From Chlamydiota bacterium (GTDB lineage Bacteria > Patescibacteriota > Saccharimonadia > Saccharimonadales > UBA4665), in the NCBI GenBank assembly GCA_903970425.1, contig CAJCIR010000036.1, forward strand, positions 1 through 41,655: a stretch of 41,655 nt of DNA. Reading direction: 5' to 3'. The translations under genes were made by a program, and so were the position numbers. Below, piece by piece: positions 29,935 through 41,655 of this stretch (positions within the stretch are counted from its first letter, which is position 1; each line of letters opens with the position of its first letter). The notes under the pieces are model-generated. The model did not search any database and was not told the DNA's origin. It saw only the letters and a list, made by a program, of their open reading frames with translations.

Positions 29935-31405
<1,471 letters not shown>

Positions 31406-31746: not shown

Positions 31747-31823
31747 GGGGATATAGCTCAGTTGGCTAGAGCACCTGCTTTGCAAGCAGGGGGTCCAGGG
31801 TTCGAGTCCCTGTATCTCCACCA
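31747..31823 (+). tRNA. tRNA-Ala (TGC)
   Basis: Acceptor GGGGATA/TATCTCC with one G-U pair, anticodon stem CCTGC/GCAGG around TTTGCAA (TGC), T-arm CAGGGTTCGAGTCCCTG, and encoded CCA. It follows tRNA-Ile by 9 bases, the order usually found in a 16S-23S spacer. Confidence 0.96.
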
Positions 31824-31884
31824 GAGTTTCGTTGTGATATCATAGTAAACATCAAAAGCAGTAGGGAGGGGATAACAACCACTG

Positions 31885-33516
31885 ATGAATAAAATTGCTC
31901 ATTACCTGCAGGATCACGTACTCGGGGAAGTCATGGACTCAGCGGATGCTAGACAGTATTTCTCTACGGACAATAGCATTTTAAACATTACTCCATCTGT
32001 TATTCTCTATCCAAGTAACGAAAACGATGTTAGAAAAACAGCAAGATTCAGCTGGCAACTAGCTGAGCGAGGACGAGTTATACCAATAACTGCCCGAGGC
32101 TCAGGAACTGACCAAACTGGTGCCGCCATTGGTAGTGGAATTATTATTGTTTTTCCAGCACATATGAACCGCATAGTTGAGTTTGATGGCAAGAATGGCG
32201 ATGCTGTTATTGAGCCTGGCATTAACTACGGTAAACTACAGCAAACCCTACACACACATAACCGTTTTCTACCGCCGTTTCCGGCTTCTTTAGAGTATTC
32301 AACCGTAGGTGGTGCGATAGCCAATAACTCCGCTGGTGAGAAGTCCATAAAGTACGGTGACACCCGTCGCTACGTTAAAGCGCTACGAGTTGTTCTGGCT
32401 AACGGGGAGGTCATTGAGACAGGTCCGCTCAGTAAACGGGAGCTTAATAAAAAACTTGGTCTAACAACTTTTGAGGGGGAAGTGTATCGTTCCCTGGACG
32501 TATTGTTGGAAGAAAATACCGCGTTGATTAATGACATTGGTCCTAGGGTGACTCGCAATACTTCTGGATATGATTTAGCTGGTATCAAATCGAAGAAAGG
32601 CTTTGACCTAACCCCGTTATTTGTAGGCTCTCAGGGGACGCTGGGAATCATCACCGAAGCTATGCTACAAACAGAGATACATAACACTGGCAGTACTCTT
32701 GTTGTGGGTTTCTTTGATGATTTGCAGAACGTACAGGATGCTGTTCTGAGCCTTAATGAACTTTCTGATCTTCCTAGTGCCATAGAGATGGTTGATGCTC
32801 AGTTACTCAGCCTAGTGGACCGCCTTAATCCCAACCTACTGAAGAACGTGATAACTAAACCGTACCCAAATTATGTCTTGTTTGTGGAGTTTGATAATGC
32901 CAATGATCGTGTACAAAAACGTCTAGCCAGAAGAGCCCGAAAGATTTTCGAAAAATATGCGGCTTCTCACCAAGTTGAGAGCGAAGAGGAGAAAAAGGCA
33001 GAGCTTTGGAAGATACGTCAGGCCTCGTCGGTTGTCTTAACCTACGTCGAAGGTGGATCAAGATCAATACCGTTAATAGAAGACGGTATAGTGCCGTTAG
33101 ACAAGCTAAATGAATACATAGCCGGCTTATACCAATTATTCGAGCGAAACCATCTGCAGATCGCTCTGTGGGGACATATTGGCGAGGGCAACATACACGT
33201 CCAGCCTTTCATGAACTTGGCTCAGGTGGGAGATCGACAAAGGATATTTAAGCTGATGGATGAATACTACACCATGGTCATTAACCTAGGAGGTAGCACC
33301 AGTGCTGGACATAATGATGGCCGACTACGTTCCCCTTATCTAGAGAAGTTATATGGCAAAGACACCATAGACCTCTTTGCAAAGGTAAAGAAGATATTTG
33401 ATCCACATAACATTCTTAATCCAGGGGTGAAAACACCATCCAGTACAAATAATTTGAAAGACATACTGCGCAAAGAATACTCCAACGATTTATATACCCA
33501 GCTACCTAGATCTTAG
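31885..33516 (+). CDS. FAD-linked oxidase, GlcD/D-lactate dehydrogenase family (543 aa)
   Basis: The PCMH-type FAD-binding domain is evident: PSNENDVRKTARFSWQLAER, ITARGSGTDQTGAAIGSGII, VEPG-like VIEPGINYGKL, and the STVGGAIANNSAGEKSIKYG block; GSQGTLGIITEAML closes it. The C-terminal oxidase domain has GHIGEGNIHVQPFMNL and HNDGR, and ends FDPHNILNPGVK, the usual end of GlcD-type proteins. No iron-sulphur domain is fused. The likely reaction is oxidation of a 2-hydroxy acid such as D-lactate or glycolate; the substrate is not certain. GGGAGGGG lies upstream at a rather long distance (about 14 bases). It is convergent with the GH10 gene, one base apart. Confidence 0.87.
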   Translation: MNKIAHYLQDHVLGEVMDSADARQYFSTDNSILNITPSVILYPSNENDVRKTARFSWQLAERGRVIPITARGSGTDQTGAAIGSGIIIVFPAHMNRIVEFDGKNGDAVIEPGINYGKLQQTLHTHNRFLPPFPASLEYSTVGGAIANNSAGEKSIKYGDTRRYVKALRVVLANGEVIETGPLSKRELNKKLGLTTFEGEVYRSLDVLLEENTALINDIGPRVTRNTSGYDLAGIKSKKGFDLTPLFVGSQGTLGIITEAMLQTEIHNTGSTLVVGFFDDLQNVQDAVLSLNELSDLPSAIEMVDAQLLSLVDRLNPNLLKNVITKPYPNYVLFVEFDNANDRVQKRLARRARKIFEKYAASHQVESEEEKKAELWKIRQASSVVLTYVEGGSRSIPLIEDGIVPLDKLNEYIAGLYQLFERNHLQIALWGHIGEGNIHVQPFMNLAQVGDRQRIFKLMDEYYTMVINLGGSTSAGHNDGRLRSPYLEKLYGKDTIDLFAKVKKIFDPHNILNPGVKTPSSTNNLKDILRKEYSNDLYTQLPRS

Positions 33517-33517
33517 G

Positions 33518-34630
33518 CTATGGTTGTTGCCAGGCTTGGCGGAACGCATAAAAAGCTGGGGTTGGGCGGTATCTGCTGTCAAACAGGTAAGAATGCGAAT
33601 CTGTACCACCGAGCCATTTAAGCAGGTTATCTTTATCGGTAGTCCCAAATTCATCGAAGCTGACACAAGATTCTGACTCTATGCAGGCTCTCACCATATT
33701 GTAGTTTATCTGTGATTCTAACTGATTTTTATAAGTGTTAGTTCCTTTAACGGAGTTAATATTAACGTCAAATTCTGTAACGTAGACGGGAAGTCCTAGA
33801 GCCTTAAATCGCTGCATGTTTTGTATGACTGCCGTCACGCTTGGAGGATCGGCGGCATTAATATGCATCTGCATCCCTATTCCTTCGATAGGCACACCTC
33901 TTGCCAGTGCTCCTTTGACATAATTGTATTCAGCATTAGATACGCTGTTTTCGGTCTCGTTATCGAAGTCGTTAAGTAGTAATTTGGCTTTAGGATCTGC
34001 TTGATGGGCCCAAATGAAAGAGTCGTCAATATATGTGGTGCCTTCACCGATATGGTCTGCCCACCAATCATCGAGACCATAGATATGCTGAGATCGAGTA
34101 AATGCTTCGTTTACCACTGTCCACTCAGCTACTTGACCCTTGTAGTGTCCTACGACAGTACTAATGTCCTGATGAAGGATGTTGAGTAGCTGAGCTTGAG
34201 TGTAGTTGCCACTTTTTAACCAGTTGGGAAGAAAATTCTTTTCACCCCATACCAGGTGGTGTATTTGAACTGGCATGTCATTAGCTTTGGCAAAAGCCAT
34301 GACCTTATTGATCTTAGTGTAGTTATAGGTGGTTGGAGAGGGGCGAAGCGTGTTCCATTGGGCCTCACCATCGATAGTTACAAAGGAATATTGTGACTTG
34401 ATGATATCCGTGTAGGGTTTTTCTGATAGGCGACTCGCCTCTACTCTCGTGCCTAGAGCTATGTCGTGAGCAGTGGCAAGGTCTTTAAGGGGTGGAGCAG
34501 GTAAGTCAGGGGCGCTTACGGAAAAATACCAATACAAGAAAGTTATGAGTATCACAACTACTGGGGTTAATAATAGAATTAACAGCTTATGAGATTTGTG
34601 TTTGCGTTTGTTTTTTTGTTTTTGTCCCAC
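33518..34630 (-). CDS. Membrane-anchored GH10 endo-xylanase-like protein (370 aa)
   Basis: A basic N-terminus (GQKQKNKRKHKSHK) and one helix (about 16-36) anchor the protein facing outward. The rest is a single GH10 barrel: IHHLVWGEKN (first substrate His/Trp motif), EWTVVNEAF with the acid/base Glu175, and LPVYVTEFDVN with the nucleophile Glu286. Both catalytic Glu are intact, so it should be active on beta-1,4-xylan or a related glycan. The start GTG 34630 follows TACTAT by six bases, suggesting a leaderless message. A xylan target is odd for an animal-associated epibiont and would suit an environmental lineage. Confidence 0.87.
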   Translation of the reverse strand: MGQKQKNKRKHKSHKLLILLLTPVVVILITFLYWYFSVSAPDLPAPPLKDLATAHDIALGTRVEASRLSEKPYTDIIKSQYSFVTIDGEAQWNTLRPSPTTYNYTKINKVMAFAKANDMPVQIHHLVWGEKNFLPNWLKSGNYTQAQLLNILHQDISTVVGHYKGQVAEWTVVNEAFTRSQHIYGLDDWWADHIGEGTTYIDDSFIWAHQADPKAKLLLNDFDNETENSVSNAEYNYVKGALARGVPIEGIGMQMHINAADPPSVTAVIQNMQRFKALGLPVYVTEFDVNINSVKGTNTYKNQLESQINYNMVRACIESESCVSFDEFGTTDKDNLLKWLGGTDSHSYLFDSRYRPTPAFYAFRQAWQQP

Positions 34631-34719
34631 GCCACAATAGTATCTTCAATCTGTATAAATATCCATCCTTAAGATAGGTAGATGGTTATTTTTCTTATCA
34701 AGAAGTTGTATACTATTTC

Positions 34720-34725
34720 TATAAT
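34720..34725 (+). promoter_or_regulatory. -10 element of the 1733-residue protein gene
   Basis: TATAAT is followed by 14 A/T-only bases and the ATG. The leader would be only about 7 bases, with no Shine-Dalgarno site. It lies in the 109-bp divergent gap with the GH10 gene. Confidence 0.55.
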
Positions 34726-34739
34726 TTAAAAATAAAAAA

Positions 34740-37700
34740 ATGAACGAAGAACAACCTAGTGACGTTGCAGTACTTAACCCCGGAGATAGCTGGCAGGCAC
34801 TAGGTCAACACGTAGCCGAGCACCCAGAGCAATACCACGAGGGCATCAAGCCTATTATCGAAGGCTTGGTCCAGCAACATACAGGTGTTCCCCCTACAAC
34901 ACAGGAAGCAGTGCAAGCTCTACGGATGGTTCCGCTAGAGAAGGCGGCGGGTGAGGCTGTGCAGGCTGTGGAACGCACGAGTGGAGTAAGAAACTCCGAC
35001 CGTGAGAGAGATGAGGTTAGCGTCAACAGAGTTGGACTGATGGCCGAACTCAGCAAGATGGCTCCACAATTGGCCAGCGAAGCATTTGATGTTGCCTCTA
35101 AGATACCCAATAAATACGACAAGTATAAGGCAGCTGCAAGGCTTGTTCGTGTAGCCGTAGAAACCAATAACATTGAAAGGTGTCTGGACCTTTTTGCGGA
35201 CGAGGAAAGTAATTATTCTCGAAATAATTTGCTTGGTCGCATCGCCACCGAGCTATCGCATAGCGGAAAACCTGATGAAGCTATCACTCAGGCTCGTCGC
35301 ATTTCATCAGTTGATTCACGGATGGAAGCGCTCACTAAAATTTTAGAAGACCATCCTGAGAAGGCATCAGAAATTCATACAGCGGTTCTTGATACCAGCA
35401 TCGATTCTGAGGCAGAGCGTGAGAAAAACCCAGCTAGTGAAAGTGACTTCGAAAGAGATCGATACAGGGTTAAGGCGTTAATAAAACTGGCAGACCATCT
35501 GCCTGAAGCAGCAAAAGAAGCTGCGGAGAGAGTTAGGCGTAATGAAGGAGAGCTGAGGCATTATGACATTGACGATTTGCTTGAGCTATCAAAGCGCGAA
35601 CCTTCCATAACACCTAAGGTAGCTGAGCTATACGACTCTTGGCAGAGTCAACCTGAAGCAAAATTATCTCTTTATGAACTTAAAAATACGATCCCGGAAC
35701 GAGCCGATAAAGTCAGGGAAACTGCGCTCGCACTATCTAGTCAGGGTCATAGCTCTGAAGCCGTTACATTAGCTGAGACGCTAGGTTCTCGCAGGATGGA
35801 GGATATAGCATCGGAGTTAGCGAATGCTGCCATACGCTTCGGGCATCCAAAACAGGCTGCAGAGCTGGCCAAGAAGCTTGGGGGGTATGAAGGGGTTAAA
35901 CTGTGTAAGAATATTTTGCCCAACCTCCAAGACCCAGAAACCAGAAGCCTAGTAATCGACCAAATTCGACGAAATGGTAACCGGAAGGATCTGGCTGCTG
36001 CAGCTAAGTATGCGCCGGAGCTAATTTTAGAGGTTGAGGCTCAGATTGAAGGAATGAGTTCGGGTTTCGATAAGAGGGACGCACAGGATGAGTTAATTCC
36101 AGCCTTTATAGCAAGCGGACGCAAGGAAGAAGCACTGAAGCTACTTAGCAATAAAATGTCCTGGCAAGTCGAAAAAGTCATGGAAAGTTTAGAGCTCCCA
36201 GCAAATTTAGAGGTAGTAAAAGACATTGCCTACAACTATCTAAAGGCTGGTGATAAGGCTAGGGCGCTTGCAAAATTAGCAAAGTTTTACCCTGAGGCAG
36301 CTAGCGATTGCATGAGAGTCATAGATGAAGATCTAGTACCTGAGATTGCTGAGTATCGTGCGAAAGAACGTCATGAAAGGCTGTTTAACGAGTTGGATAC
36401 GGTGGAGACCGTAAAACTATTAGCAGAAGCTGGTTTCGTTGATGAGGCGGCTAAAGTATCCGAAATTTTGATATACCGAGATAACTACATTGTGGCTGTA
36501 TCCGATTTTGTACACTCACGCCCGGATATGTTACCAACATTTATTAAATACATAGGTAAGAATGCCGGTCGTATGGACGAGAATGAGCGTCTACAGAAAC
36601 TGGCAACTGTAATTGGTCGATTACCGGAAGATCAGATAGCTGGTCTACTACCAAACCTCTCCGAAATGGAAAGTAGTGCATCCAGACTCATGGTCGCTGA
36701 TATAATCGGAGGTAAGCTAATTAGTAGTGGCCGGTCGCAGGACTTGCTCAATTTGCTCCCAGAAAAGCTGTCAGACCGTACGGGCACTGAGCTTTATAAA
36801 AAGATAGCGGTCGAATTTGCTAAGCGTGGAGAGCTTAACAACATCCGGAGTATTGTTGAGCGCTTTAGCAACCAATATATTAGTCGTGTTTCCCTGTTAG
36901 CCGATATAGTTGATGTAGCGCCGGAACTTGCCCCCGACCTATGGCGAGATTTACAGGAAAAGTTGAATGAGCCTCAGTACCGTTTTGATCCGGATAAATT
37001 TGTCATAAAAATCGCTGCATCTGTGCCAGAAGCTGCAGATTATCTAATGGACTCTCTAAGGGCTAAGGGCACTGATTACAGTAAAAAGATCTCTGCAGTT
37101 AACGCCTTGATAGATGCTGGTCGAGCTAGTGAAGCATTAGAGATAGTGGGCTCAATGTGGGGGATTGACGAGATGTTACCGAGAATAATACCGACACTTA
37201 TAGAACATGGTGACATAGCCCTAGCTTTAGACAAAGCCCGGTCTATCTCTGATCCCTTTGTGCAAGCAAGAGCGCTAGCAAGTTTAGTCCCACGCGAACA
37301 TGAACCAGCTCATAAAGCCCTGCTCCATGAACTGCTTGGTGGAGTTGGTGTGGAGGGAAGTGAGCACGCTATTAGTGATAGAAGCTTGAATGCCAGGTTC
37401 TTTACTGAGGAAATTGCTAAAGAGCCGCTACTGATCGAGACATTCCTAGGCCGTGCAACTAGCCCAGCAGAATTACTGGCTATAATGAAGACAATTGATG
37501 CGGCTGCGGAGATGGTGGAAAATGGCAATGACTTACGTTACCAAGCGCTAAAGTCTCTTAAACGTTTTGACACTAAAGATACGCTTGCAGGTTATTGGAA
37601 AGCAGATCTGCAGGAGCAAGCCTTGGGCGGCGAGAAAGCCGATCACAACAGATTTAAAAACCTTCCTAACTTGAGACAACTAGATGCAAATCTGAAGGGC

Positions 37701-39941
37701 AGGACCTCAGAACTTGTCCATGGTCTCCTGAAAAGTGGCTACGGCGCTGCTGACCTTTTTGAACACCCATGGTTATTAAAGCAAGAGATTCTTGAGAAAG
37801 CTGATAAGGGTAACATTTTCCCCATTAATGGTTCAAAAGTGGAACAGCACGAATGGCTAGCCGACAATTCTTTTGTAGGACTTCAAGGCTTCAGCCGCCG
37901 GCAAATTGGCCAGATCTTAGCCAATCGTCTAGGAAACAATATGGAGTACAGTCTCCATGACGCCAGTCAGTGGCTGGAAACTTTCCAGGTTGGGGCCGTC
38001 ATGGAATTGTACAATTCAGAAACGGGACAAATAGAGGATAAGCGCACGGTCGATCCAGAACTGGAAGATCAACTGCTTGGCATGCTACTTGATAGAACGT
38101 ATTCTCCTGAGGAGCTTCGTCGTCTTCCGGGTTTTGCGAGCGCTAGTGGCGCAGCTGCTGAATTAAAGACACAGAAATTTGATCAACTATTTCATGAGCC
38201 TTCTTACGCTATTGTCTACGCTGCCATACTGCAGGAACTAGCAGCCTCCGAAACCGGTAGAATCGATAACAGGGAATCTTTGGAGAAAAGAATCAATGGT
38301 TGGGCTGAGTCAGGTATTATTGATGCTTGGCTGGGTCAAAGCAAGGAAATTGTGAATAGAGACGAAACTCTTGCATCTATGTCCCTGGGTTTGATTACGA
38401 ATCTGTACGCTAACGGTAACTCGTCCTACGACCAGGAGCAAACTAAAATCTCCAACATCATAGGACAGCTAAATTCTATAGGGAAATCCCGCAAAGAGTA
38501 CATTGACTCTACAACTACTTGGCTTAAGACCTATCAAAACTTACCGGCGCAGAAGCTACAACGTGCCTGGGGCGAACGAGCAAAAGCCTTGGCTGCTGGA
38601 GTACCAGATAATCCTAATGATATCTATGAATGGTCACTGGCTTCAGGACTACGTGAGTATTTATCAGGCAGTACCGATGAAAATGGCATGATAGATGGCA
38701 ATATACCAGCTTCTGAAATGATGACACGCTTTAGATCTTTCATCCCAGAGTTAGTCACACGTTACGATAGTGACAGGACGGTCGGAGCTCTAACTCGTCT
38801 GTGGCGAGAACATAACCCTGAGGCCGACCTAGCTCCCCTAAGCGTTGAATTGCCTGACGGTTACACGTTTAAGGTATTCTCCAAAGATGACCCTGCCGGT
38901 ATGACCATAGGTTACGATACTGATTGCTGCATGACACTCGGTGGTGCTAGTGAAAGCTGTATCTATGCTGGATACAGTGATCCACGCTTTGGTTTTGTTG
39001 GCCTATACGATCAAGATGAAAAACTAGTAGCGCAGTCATTCGTGTGGCATAACGACGATACTTTGGTGCTTGATAACATCGAGGGACAGCGTGGCCGCAA
39101 CCTGGGCGACATACAGGGACGTTACAAAGAAGCATTAAAAGAGTATCTGATTAACTTAAATTATGATAAGCCAGAGCTGGGAATTAGGAATGTAAATCTT
39201 GGCACTGGATACCTAGACTCTCGGATTAGTACAGGGCTGGAGAGGGTTAGGGCTGTATCGTTGCCTGAAACAAACGAAAGTATATACACGGATGCTGGAA
39301 GCCAAATGAGACTACTAAGCCTATCGGAGGAGGAACTTGTGCAGAGGGGCAATAACGGGCCTGAAAACGACATTGAAGTTTTCCCTACAGCTATAGAGAC
39401 CCAGCCAGAACGTGTGGCACAACCTGAGATGGTATCAATCTCCTCTCCCTCAGAGGGCGCTCAAATAATTAATGACATTGAGTCACAAGTTTATCCAGCA
39501 GAGATAGCCAACGGACGCGCCGATATCCGGGAGGATTTGGAACGACCGGACAACTATAGTTTCTTGATAGGTTCTAGAAACGGTAACGGCGGCACTGTTG
39601 GCTATATGATCGCTTATCATGATGATGAAGCAGACGGAGTGTACGTATCAGATCTAGCGTTGCTTCCTACTGAGCAACGTGGTGGCTACGGGGCCGCTGC
39701 TATGGACTATTTACTAGCTATGACAGCAGGCGTCGGTGAGAAAAGGGTTGTATTCGAAGCACGGGAGTCTACTTCATATCAGGCTCTACAGTCGCCAAGA
39801 GTAGCTTTAATCCTAGCTAAGCACGGCTATCTCATAACTCGCAGCCAGCGGATGGAAAATTACTTTGACAATGGTGAAAATGCGTATGAAGTAACACTAG
39901 AGATGCAGCCGGTGATGGTAGACGCCAAGGCCACGGCTTAA
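34740..39941 (+). CDS. Giant alpha-helical repeat protein with C-terminal GNAT-like domains (1733 aa)
   Basis: There is no signal peptide or membrane helix, so the protein is probably cytoplasmic unless exported by a dedicated system. Residues about 90-1000 are helix pairs of 30-40 residues of HEAT/TPR type, with motifs like LAKLAKFYPEAASDCMRVID and 'APELAPDLWRDL'. About 1000-1370 is helical without clear repeats. At about 1376-1480 a domain with TIGYDTDCCMTLGGASESC, GFVGLYDQDEKLVAQSFVW and LVLDNIEGQRGRNLG looks like a divergent GNAT fold. At about 1583-1725 a better GNAT domain follows: VYVSDLALLPTEQRGGYGAA gives the acetyl-CoA loop. I do not recognise the whole architecture. Acyl transfer guided by a protein-binding scaffold is inference. 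The gene is single. Confidence 0.75.
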   Translation: MNEEQPSDVAVLNPGDSWQALGQHVAEHPEQYHEGIKPIIEGLVQQHTGVPPTTQEAVQALRMVPLEKAAGEAVQAVERTSGVRNSDRERDEVSVNRVGLMAELSKMAPQLASEAFDVASKIPNKYDKYKAAARLVRVAVETNNIERCLDLFADEESNYSRNNLLGRIATELSHSGKPDEAITQARRISSVDSRMEALTKILEDHPEKASEIHTAVLDTSIDSEAEREKNPASESDFERDRYRVKALIKLADHLPEAAKEAAERVRRNEGELRHYDIDDLLELSKREPSITPKVAELYDSWQSQPEAKLSLYELKNTIPERADKVRETALALSSQGHSSEAVTLAETLGSRRMEDIASELANAAIRFGHPKQAAELAKKLGGYEGVKLCKNILPNLQDPETRSLVIDQIRRNGNRKDLAAAAKYAPELILEVEAQIEGMSSGFDKRDAQDELIPAFIASGRKEEALKLLSNKMSWQVEKVMESLELPANLEVVKDIAYNYLKAGDKARALAKLAKFYPEAASDCMRVIDEDLVPEIAEYRAKERHERLFNELDTVETVKLLAEAGFVDEAAKVSEILIYRDNYIVAVSDFVHSRPDMLPTFIKYIGKNAGRMDENERLQKLATVIGRLPEDQIAGLLPNLSEMESSASRLMVADIIGGKLISSGRSQDLLNLLPEKLSDRTGTELYKKIAVEFAKRGELNNIRSIVERFSNQYISRVSLLADIVDVAPELAPDLWRDLQEKLNEPQYRFDPDKFVIKIAASVPEAADYLMDSLRAKGTDYSKKISAVNALIDAGRASEALEIVGSMWGIDEMLPRIIPTLIEHGDIALALDKARSISDPFVQARALASLVPREHEPAHKALLHELLGGVGVEGSEHAISDRSLNARFFTEEIAKEPLLIETFLGRATSPAELLAIMKTIDAAAEMVENGNDLRYQALKSLKRFDTKDTLAGYWKADLQEQALGGEKADHNRFKNLPNLRQLDANLKGRTSELVHGLLKSGYGAADLFEHPWLLKQEILEKADKGNIFPINGSKVEQHEWLADNSFVGLQGFSRRQIGQILANRLGNNMEYSLHDASQWLETFQVGAVMELYNSETGQIEDKRTVDPELEDQLLGMLLDRTYSPEELRRLPGFASASGAAAELKTQKFDQLFHEPSYAIVYAAILQELAASETGRIDNRESLEKRINGWAESGIIDAWLGQSKEIVNRDETLASMSLGLITNLYANGNSSYDQEQTKISNIIGQLNSIGKSRKEYIDSTTTWLKTYQNLPAQKLQRAWGERAKALAAGVPDNPNDIYEWSLASGLREYLSGSTDENGMIDGNIPASEMMTRFRSFIPELVTRYDSDRTVGALTRLWREHNPEADLAPLSVELPDGYTFKVFSKDDPAGMTIGYDTDCCMTLGGASESCIYAGYSDPRFGFVGLYDQDEKLVAQSFVWHNDDTLVLDNIEGQRGRNLGDIQGRYKEALKEYLINLNYDKPELGIRNVNLGTGYLDSRISTGLERVRAVSLPETNESIYTDAGSQMRLLSLSEEELVQRGNNGPENDIEVFPTAIETQPERVAQPEMVSISSPSEGAQIINDIESQVYPAEIANGRADIREDLERPDNYSFLIGSRNGNGGTVGYMIAYHDDEADGVYVSDLALLPTEQRGGYGAAAMDYLLAMTAGVGEKRVVFEARESTSYQALQSPRVALILAKHGYLITRSQRMENYFDNGENAYEVTLEMQPVMVDAKATA

Positions 39942-39958
39942 GCATAGTACTACTATAT

Positions 39959-40045
39959 TGGTGCGCGAGAGAGGACTTGAACCTCCAAGCTTTTAAGGGC
40001 ATAGCCACCTCAAGGCTACGTGTTTACCAATTTCACCACTCGCGC
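39959..40045 (-). tRNA. tRNA-Leu (GAG)
   Basis: On the minus strand acceptor GCGCGAG/CTCGCGC, anticodon stem TAGCC/GGCTA around TTGAGGT (GAG), a long class II variable arm (TGCCCTTAAAAGCTT region) and T-arm GGAGGTTCAAGTCCTC. CCA is encoded. Confidence 0.94.
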
Positions 40046-40150
40046 GAGTACTAGTAGCATACTGGTCCATTTTCAAAAAAACAACTAATGGCTAGAATAT
40101 ACCCAGCCTTGTATTCTGTGTTCTAAAACGATAATATACCTCGAGATTGC

Positions 40151-40227
40151 GGGCGATTAGCTCAGTTGGCTAGAGCATCTCGTTTACACCGAGAGGGTCG
40201 GGGGTTCGAGTCCCTCATCGCCCACCA
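40151..40227 (+). tRNA. tRNA-Val (TAC)
   Basis: Acceptor GGGCGAT/ATCGCCC, anticodon stem TCTCG/CGAGA around TTTACAC (TAC), T-arm CGGGGGTTCGAGTCCCTC, and encoded CCA. It shares its acceptor with the GAC valine tRNA at 11960. Confidence 0.95.
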
Positions 40228-40241
40228 ATTAGGAGATATGA

Positions 40242-40619
40242 GTGTCAATTACTAGTGTTAAGTTGTTTTCCATACCTGTATCTAACCAAGATCAGGCTAG
40301 AGAGTTCTACGTTGATAAAGTAGGATTTGAACTAAAGAATGATCGGCTTATGGATCCGCAGCGTCGTTGGATAGAAGTGGGCCCCAAAGGTGCCAAGACC
40401 AGTATAACTCTAGTAACATGGTTTGGAGACATGACAGCTGGATCTGTTAAAGGGGTGGTGCTGCAGAGTGATGATCTGGAAGAAGACGTATCCATGCTGA
40501 GACAAAAGGGAATTCAATTTGAAGGTGAGACTCAGTATAAAACCGAAGGGCTATTCGTAACGTTCAAAGATCCTGACGGCAATGGACTTATTCTGCAGCA
40601 GCCAGCATTTTTTGCTTAG
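40242..40619 (+). CDS. Glyoxalase/bleomycin-resistance (VOC) family protein (125 aa)
   Basis: One VOC domain: VKLFSIPVSNQDQAREFYVD, VGFELKNDRLMDPQRRWIEV and, at the end, LFVTFKDPDGNGLILQQP with the late Glu/Gln metal position occupied by Leu-Gln. The metal site may therefore be altered. The frame starts at GTG 40242, six bases from AGGAG; an ATG 4 bases earlier is out of frame and gives five codons. It follows tRNA-Val by 14 bases and probably reads through from it. The substrate is unknown. Confidence 0.85.
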   Translation: MSITSVKLFSIPVSNQDQAREFYVDKVGFELKNDRLMDPQRRWIEVGPKGAKTSITLVTWFGDMTAGSVKGVVLQSDDLEEDVSMLRQKGIQFEGETQYKTEGLFVTFKDPDGNGLILQQPAFFA

Positions 40620-40683
40620 CGATAGTACATTTACGTGCACCAGACAGGTACCAAGTTGTAGCAATTTTGTCATCACTTTAAGC

Positions 40684-40712
40684 TTGACCGCCTCTGTTAT
40701 ACCTGCTACAAT
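40684..40712 (+). promoter_or_regulatory. Separate 23S rRNA promoter
   Basis: TTGACC (40684-40689), a 17-base spacer and TACAAT (40707-40712). The leader of about 175 bases carries a 9-bp inverted pair TTGAGTTTA/TAAACTCAA and the hairpin TTGTTGG/CCAACAA. Confidence 0.7.
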
Positions 40713-40894
40713 GTCACAAGTTTGAGTTTAGGCACGAGTCTAAGCGTAGTTTCTAGCATAAACTCAAGCGCGGCAATTATGAACTGTGGGATGCTGGGTT
40801 TTGTAACTTAAAAATTTGGATCATATAGATGAAAAAATATGACAAACGGCAAATTGTTGGTAAATGGACCAACAACTAGTCAATGCAGAAATGT

Positions 40895-41655
<761 letters not shown>

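Follow-up and report, generated by a model that had tools for sequence, protein, structure and literature searches.

A putative tandem-GNAT protein of 1733 residues, encoded within a split rRNA operon, and its relatives in phages and Patescibacteria

The window, by which we mean the whole stretch of 41,655 nt that was analyzed, contains an open reading frame on the (+) strand from 34740 to 39941, which begins with ATG and encodes a protein of 1733 aa, exactly as an earlier note on this DNA had reported. The motifs quoted in that note, TDCCMTLGG (from residue 1394), AQSFVW (from 1431) and LVLDNIEG (from 1442), were all recovered. The gene also stands alone, as described there, between a divergent GH10 gene upstream (33518–34630, (-) strand) and a tRNA-Leu gene (39959–40045, (-) strand), which lies on the opposite strand 17 bases downstream; the layout is monocistronic. 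The GH10 (xylanase-family) protein has a hydrophobic segment at its N-terminus, and the genome is a reduced one. By hydropathy, we observed no transmembrane-like segment and no N-terminal hydrophobic signal in the 1733-aa protein. It contains 6 cysteines, 3 of which (1396, 1397 and 1407) fall within the segment that we refer to below as the Cys-Cys domain.

The gene is located in a split rRNA operon, within the spacer, a setting not mentioned in the earlier note, with a 16S rRNA gene as the upstream border (29935–31405, (+) strand; Rfam RF00177) and the 5' part of a 23S rRNA gene, cut by the contig end, as the downstream border (40894–41655, (+) strand; Rfam RF02541). It is part of a 9.5-kb cargo (window 31823–40894) that comprises genes for an FAD oxidase and the GH10 protein, the 1733-aa gene, two tRNAs and a glyoxalase-family gene. 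For comparison we used six relatives with 16S and 23S on one contig, in which the distance between the two was about 0.84 kb (G004), 0.91 kb (G042), 0.96 kb (G040), 1.38 kb (G036), 2.30 kb (G041) and 9.4 kb (G008). Over the spacer loci L058, L059, L060 and L061, we noted that the 2.3-kb spacer of G041 holds an extra ORF; the 9.4-kb spacer of G008 contains unrelated genes, partly of secreted or surface type. In this group, the 16S-23S spacer seems to serve as a site of insertion. Spacers of more than 1500 bases are regarded as marking unlinked operons and have been associated with small symbiont genomes (PMC7761764). The genome is a draft of 74 contigs and the contig stops inside the 23S gene, so an assembly artefact might be suspected; we consider this improbable, however, given that the gyrB-gyrA-16S order agrees with that of the relatives where checked, that the operon of G008 is likewise interrupted there, by 9.4 kb of its own, and that the gene is equal to gyrA and gyrB in third-position GC (0.419 vs 0.408 and 0.421, respectively).

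The earlier note had counted some 900 residues ahead of the first GNAT-like domain, a figure that has to be corrected to about 1360. Within this N-terminal part, residues 1–880 (34740–37379, (+) strand) form a helical, solenoid-like and variable segment with weak repeats, and residues 880–1363 (37377–38828, (+) strand) form a conserved region upstream of the GNAT pair. With the closest homologue, a protein of 1836 aa from G072, which belongs to another order, BLASTP gave 37% identity over residues 880–1721; the match begins at 880, and residues 1–880 could not be aligned. Identity with the G400 homologue was 30% over residues 998–1612. The conserved region includes HDASQW (residues 1073–1078; 37956–37973, (+) strand), an instance of a shared motif, HD[AVT]xx[WF], that was present in 8 of 13 family proteins, where shuffling of residues gives an expectation of 0.18, and also in most phage members that were added. 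As judged from these sequence comparisons, the family has a conserved C-terminal module and a variable N-terminal part. The proposal that the latter consists of HEAT/TPR-type repeats held up only in part: there was weak self-similarity with a period of about 33 residues (autocorrelation z = 4.1), but the repeat character is statistically weak, the best ungapped self-match being 41 against a shuffled maximum that averaged 32 and reached 42 in 1 of 30 shuffles, and no Pfam repeat family was matched in the N-terminal part.

That the protein ends in a GNAT domain was readily verified. The canonical domain spans residues 1564–1722 (39429–39905, (+) strand), and Pfam PF00583 matched residues 1594–1676 with an E value of 6e-6 and 26.9 bits against a cut-off of 20.7; for the C-terminal fragment the score was 30.2 bits against the gathering score of 20.7. 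This was the sole Pfam family above cut-off in the 1733-aa protein. The domain has an intact acetyl-CoA pyrophosphate loop of the form Q-x-x-G-x-G, namely QRGGYG at residues Q1646 to G1651 (39675–39692, (+) strand), although alignment showed that the loop is not retained in every relative. A match to TIGR01575 (rimI) fell below the equivalog cut-off (16.8 / 19.8 bits vs 86.4).

The segment preceding the canonical domain is the Cys-Cys domain (residues 1364–1540; 38829–39359, (+) strand). Searches with this stretch against Pfam, PHROGs, NCBIfam, PADLOC and PDB sequences yielded no match, and in the libraries and literature searched we found no described family corresponding to it; in the sense of having no family-library match, it is a new family, as had been surmised. 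An AlphaFold2 model of the domain alone had a pLDDT of 91.2 and a pTM of 0.88. In a PDB fold search with this model, the best 50 listed matches were all GNATs of the CoA type, including the SAGA/Gcn5 HAT, PaiA, RimI and YhbS; the best E value was 3.6e-5 and probabilities were 0.99–1.00, but TM-scores were modest, at about 0.36–0.56. By its model the domain is of GNAT-like fold, and we do not class it as an acetyl-CoA GNAT.

We observed a sharply conserved set of residues in the Cys-Cys domain. Asp1384, Gly1391, Thr1394 and the cysteine pair Cys1396-Cys1397 (38925–38930, (+) strand) did not vary in the 19 aligned members, and each of Gln1432, Ser1433, Asp1445, Asn1446, Ile1447 and Glu1448 was variant in at most one of the 19. 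On the model, these signature residues are located at the start and end of helix 1, in strand 3 and at the end of strand 4, all of them parts of the fold that in known GNATs line the acceptor side. The acetyl-CoA loop (Q/R-x-x-G-x-G/A) that would follow strand 4 was found in none of 18 members, and it may therefore be that the Cys-Cys domain is no acetyltransferase.

The C-terminal part as a whole was modelled by AlphaFold2 from a 19-sequence alignment. The model of the pair (pLDDT 85.7, pTM 0.53) has the strand-helix order of two GNATs, and together with the PDB fold matches it bears out the prediction that two GNAT-fold domains follow one another, of which the first is very divergent. Neither outcome that the earlier note had named as a refutation, the lack of a GNAT fold or an architecture annotated before, was encountered in the models and libraries searched. 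Its best PDB fold match was RimI (5isv, E 2.6e-8) and its best viral fold match a 656-aa phage protein with 24% identity. The model also aligned, over 310–420 columns, with the tandem GNATs VipF, MAB_4324, 3tt2 and 2wpw; both halves took part, with an rmsd of about 20 Å, so that the mutual orientation of the halves is either not reproduced or poorly predicted. In tandem GNATs of the VipF/MshD type a common sheet links the lobes in a single defined arrangement. The 1733-aa protein resembles tandem GNATs such as VipF of Legionella, MshD, MAB_4324 and 2wpw from a clavulanic acid cluster in having two GNAT-fold domains per chain and an intact acetyl-CoA loop in the C-terminal half. In contrast to them, its first domain has no sequence match and contains the invariant Cys-Cys together with DNIE, a 1360-residue part precedes the pair, and the Cys-Cys half also exists in phages without the second half. 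In VipF and the other tandem GNATs characterized so far, catalysis is carried out by the C-terminal domain only (PMC10936415). RimI and Ard1 are N-alpha-acetyltransferases, and RimI is the best fold match of the pair; the TIGR01575 score is, however, far under its cut-off, and any link to N-terminal substrates would be one of fold likeness. Another system of comparable design is the eukaryotic NatA complex, in which a helical solenoid, Naa15, is combined with a GNAT, Naa10. The likeness is one of architecture, and NatA consists of two chains whereas the bacterial protein is a single chain.

When the C-terminal 393 residues were used as query, 9 of 393 sampled genomes of the same class gave matches, its own genome included. 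Several of the 9 have open frames of 1313–1869 aa; some match the second GNAT only, and others include the same-order genomes G372, G331 and G400. None of the 59 nearest relatives searched gave a match to the gene; among 295 sampled genomes of the order, a profile of the Cys-Cys domain matched only the one that carries the gene. A scan of genome-collection contigs gave 26 pattern matches and 16 confirmed loci, whose record titles include Saccharibacteria, Nomurabacteria, Uhrbacteria, Falkowbacteria and Berkelbacteria, as well as Termititenax, Obscuribacterales and Micavibrio. In the Micavibrio member, ankyrin repeats take the place of the helical part ahead of the Cys-Cys domain. Searches of plasmids produced no Cys-Cys homologue and one weak match annotated as GNAT. 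Among the neighbors scanned, no conserved partner gene lies beside the homologues. On these sequence data the family is rare and scattered over Patescibacteria, Termititenax, Obscuribacterales, Micavibrio and phages, and the best explanation is that the gene is an accessory, laterally distributed one. We found no experimentally studied relative in the literature searched.

Several individual loci deserve description. The G400 homologue (L018:6535-10682) is interrupted in its second GNAT, the end of which continues downstream in another frame, and is either a broken gene or the result of a sequencing error. Some family genes lie near tRNAs, one of them followed by a serine recombinase gene (L036:9409-11019), the end of which overlaps a tRNA-Glu prediction; this overlap suggests an integrated element at a tRNA. 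Two giant proteins of the same order, of 1865 and 1619 aa (L022:9718-15315 and L021:7321-12911), end in or adjoin a similar second GNAT; they have no Cys-Cys domain and contain instead a cysteine-rich stretch that is not detectably related to it. The large proteins P0008 and P0010, which bear or adjoin a second GNAT of this kind, were considered as carriers of a degenerate Cys-Cys domain, for which profile comparison gave no support.

A scan of viral sequences with the raw sequence as query gave no match, and the viral members were recovered by use of the family alignment and of a degenerate DNA pattern for FLGxYTxCCQ. This pattern identified 11 viral stretches, all 11 of which encode the Cys-Cys domain by HMM (E 4e-18 or better); with a second DNA pattern 25 stretches came up, and the HMM detected the domain in none of them. 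The phage nature of some contigs that carry viral members is clear: only a few genes separate one member from a gene for the beta subunit of a phage RNA polymerase, and the gene for P0019 lies upstream of a major head protein gene, at a distance of two genes. The domain and an HDATYW motif are also found in ORF68L of Microcystis phage MaMV-DC (AGR48633.1), which differs from the 1733-aa protein in being 697 aa long and lacking a second GNAT, and which is annotated as a hypothetical protein. Besides ORF68L, the Cys-Cys domain occurs without a second GNAT in L025, L028 and the Uhrbacteria record L030. After the Cys-Cys domain, both P0019 and the giant P0012 have a second stretch that is GNAT-like. 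That of P0019 has a weak HMM match to the second GNAT of the window (E 0.035 in a library-sized search), and also occupies the same place and has the ARESTSY signature; that of P0012 is linked to it by place and signature only. The Cys-Cys and GNAT tandem appears, by these sequence comparisons, also in two phage proteins. A phage protein of 3336 aa (L026:637-10647, IMGVR_UViG_3300025117_000028, and also L071), contains SEGH 8 times against 0.03 expected by shuffling, near boundaries between domain pieces that are HU-like, DUF1653, Cys-Cys, GNAT-like, a tRNA nucleotidyltransferase with an HD domain, and a zincin-like end. Its sequence has the look of a polyprotein that is processed at a site of the prohead-protease type.

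We propose that a protein or RNA target would be bound by the long, variable, helical (solenoid-like) N-terminal part, which is followed by the conserved region with the HDxxxW motif, the Cys-Cys domain and the canonical GNAT. In the most likely mechanism, the C-terminal GNAT would take acetyl-CoA and acetylate an amine of the bound target. The Cys-Cys domain, whose Cys-Cys, Gln-Ser and Asp-Asn-x-Glu map on the model to the elements around the acceptor site of GNATs, would be joined to it in the manner of other tandem GNATs and would be a second, non-canonical site, or else a substrate holder or structural partner. By this scheme the GNAT pair probably modifies a target held by the helical front part. 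That a large tandem-GNAT protein from an unannotated family of phages and Patescibacteria operates by this mechanism is a proposition that we regard as evenly balanced between right and wrong. The Cys-Cys domain itself must be useful alone, and need not act with an acetyltransferase, because several members have no second GNAT. It has a fair chance, somewhat short of an even one, of resembling VipF and MshD in being a GNAT lobe with no catalytic role, with conserved residues that are structural or substrate-binding; the missing acetyl-CoA loop and the general rule for tandem GNATs (PMC10936415) point this way, yet the polar and cysteine residues are sharply conserved and clustered on acceptor-site elements, and the domain exists without a catalytic partner. 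Conversely, a GNAT-fold transferase that works without acetyl-CoA and has the leading active role, with the C-terminal GNAT as an optional add-on, would fit the following: the loop is absent from all 18 members, yet Asp, Gly, Thr and Cys-Cys never vary among the 19 aligned, Gln-Ser and Asp-Asn-x-Glu are nearly invariant, and phage proteins carry the domain with no second GNAT. Such an enzyme might use another acyl or aminoacyl donor, with cysteine as nucleophile or as ligand of a metal or cluster, a version that we hold just as tentatively. No link to known non-CoA GNAT-fold enzymes was detected, however, the donor is hypothetical, and the best 50 listed PDB fold matches are GNATs of the CoA type; we retain this explanation as a doubtful one because of the sharp conservation and the occurrence without a second GNAT in phages and the Uhrbacteria record.

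The site at which the protein would act may also be different. It may, like VipF, be an effector that is passed into host or prey cells: tandem-GNAT effectors are known (PMC10936415), the phage relatives imply action within infected cells, and the organism, whose order is shared with a record titled Candidatus Saccharibacteria, is probably an epibiont. The hydropathy results given above and the lack of a conserved partner gene near the homologues scanned nevertheless make delivery unlikely. GNAT toxins exist, and the location of several family genes near tRNAs, with a serine recombinase gene next in one case, might bring to mind the toxin half of a toxin-antitoxin pair, or else a defence gene of known type. 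This we consider very improbable: the gene stands alone, divergent from GH10 and with a tRNA downstream, has no antitoxin-like neighbor, and at 1733 aa is far above the size of GNAT toxins. As a candidate for a known anti-phage defence protein it had no PADLOC match at E 0.01. Returning to the Cys-Cys domain, we offer as an unlikely speculation that it represents a class of GNAT-fold enzyme not described before, in which the acetyl-CoA loop has been lost and the cysteine pair works with another donor or cofactor; phages would carry it in host-modifying proteins, and Patescibacteria would have captured it and joined it to solenoids that bind a target and to a second GNAT.

GNATs and tandem GNATs are already known, and what we have not found described is the Cys-Cys domain family, its distribution over phages and Patescibacteria, and its pairing with very long helical parts. 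Our analysis adds a rare, unannotated GNAT-fold family with a clear set of conserved residues, common to phages and very small Patescibacteria, and indicates that in this group the 16S-23S spacer can hold accessory genes. If the Cys-Cys domain does use a different donor, the known chemistry of the GNAT fold would be widened, and if the protein modifies a target in another cell or in a phage-infected one, it would provide a handle on how these bacteria or phages act.
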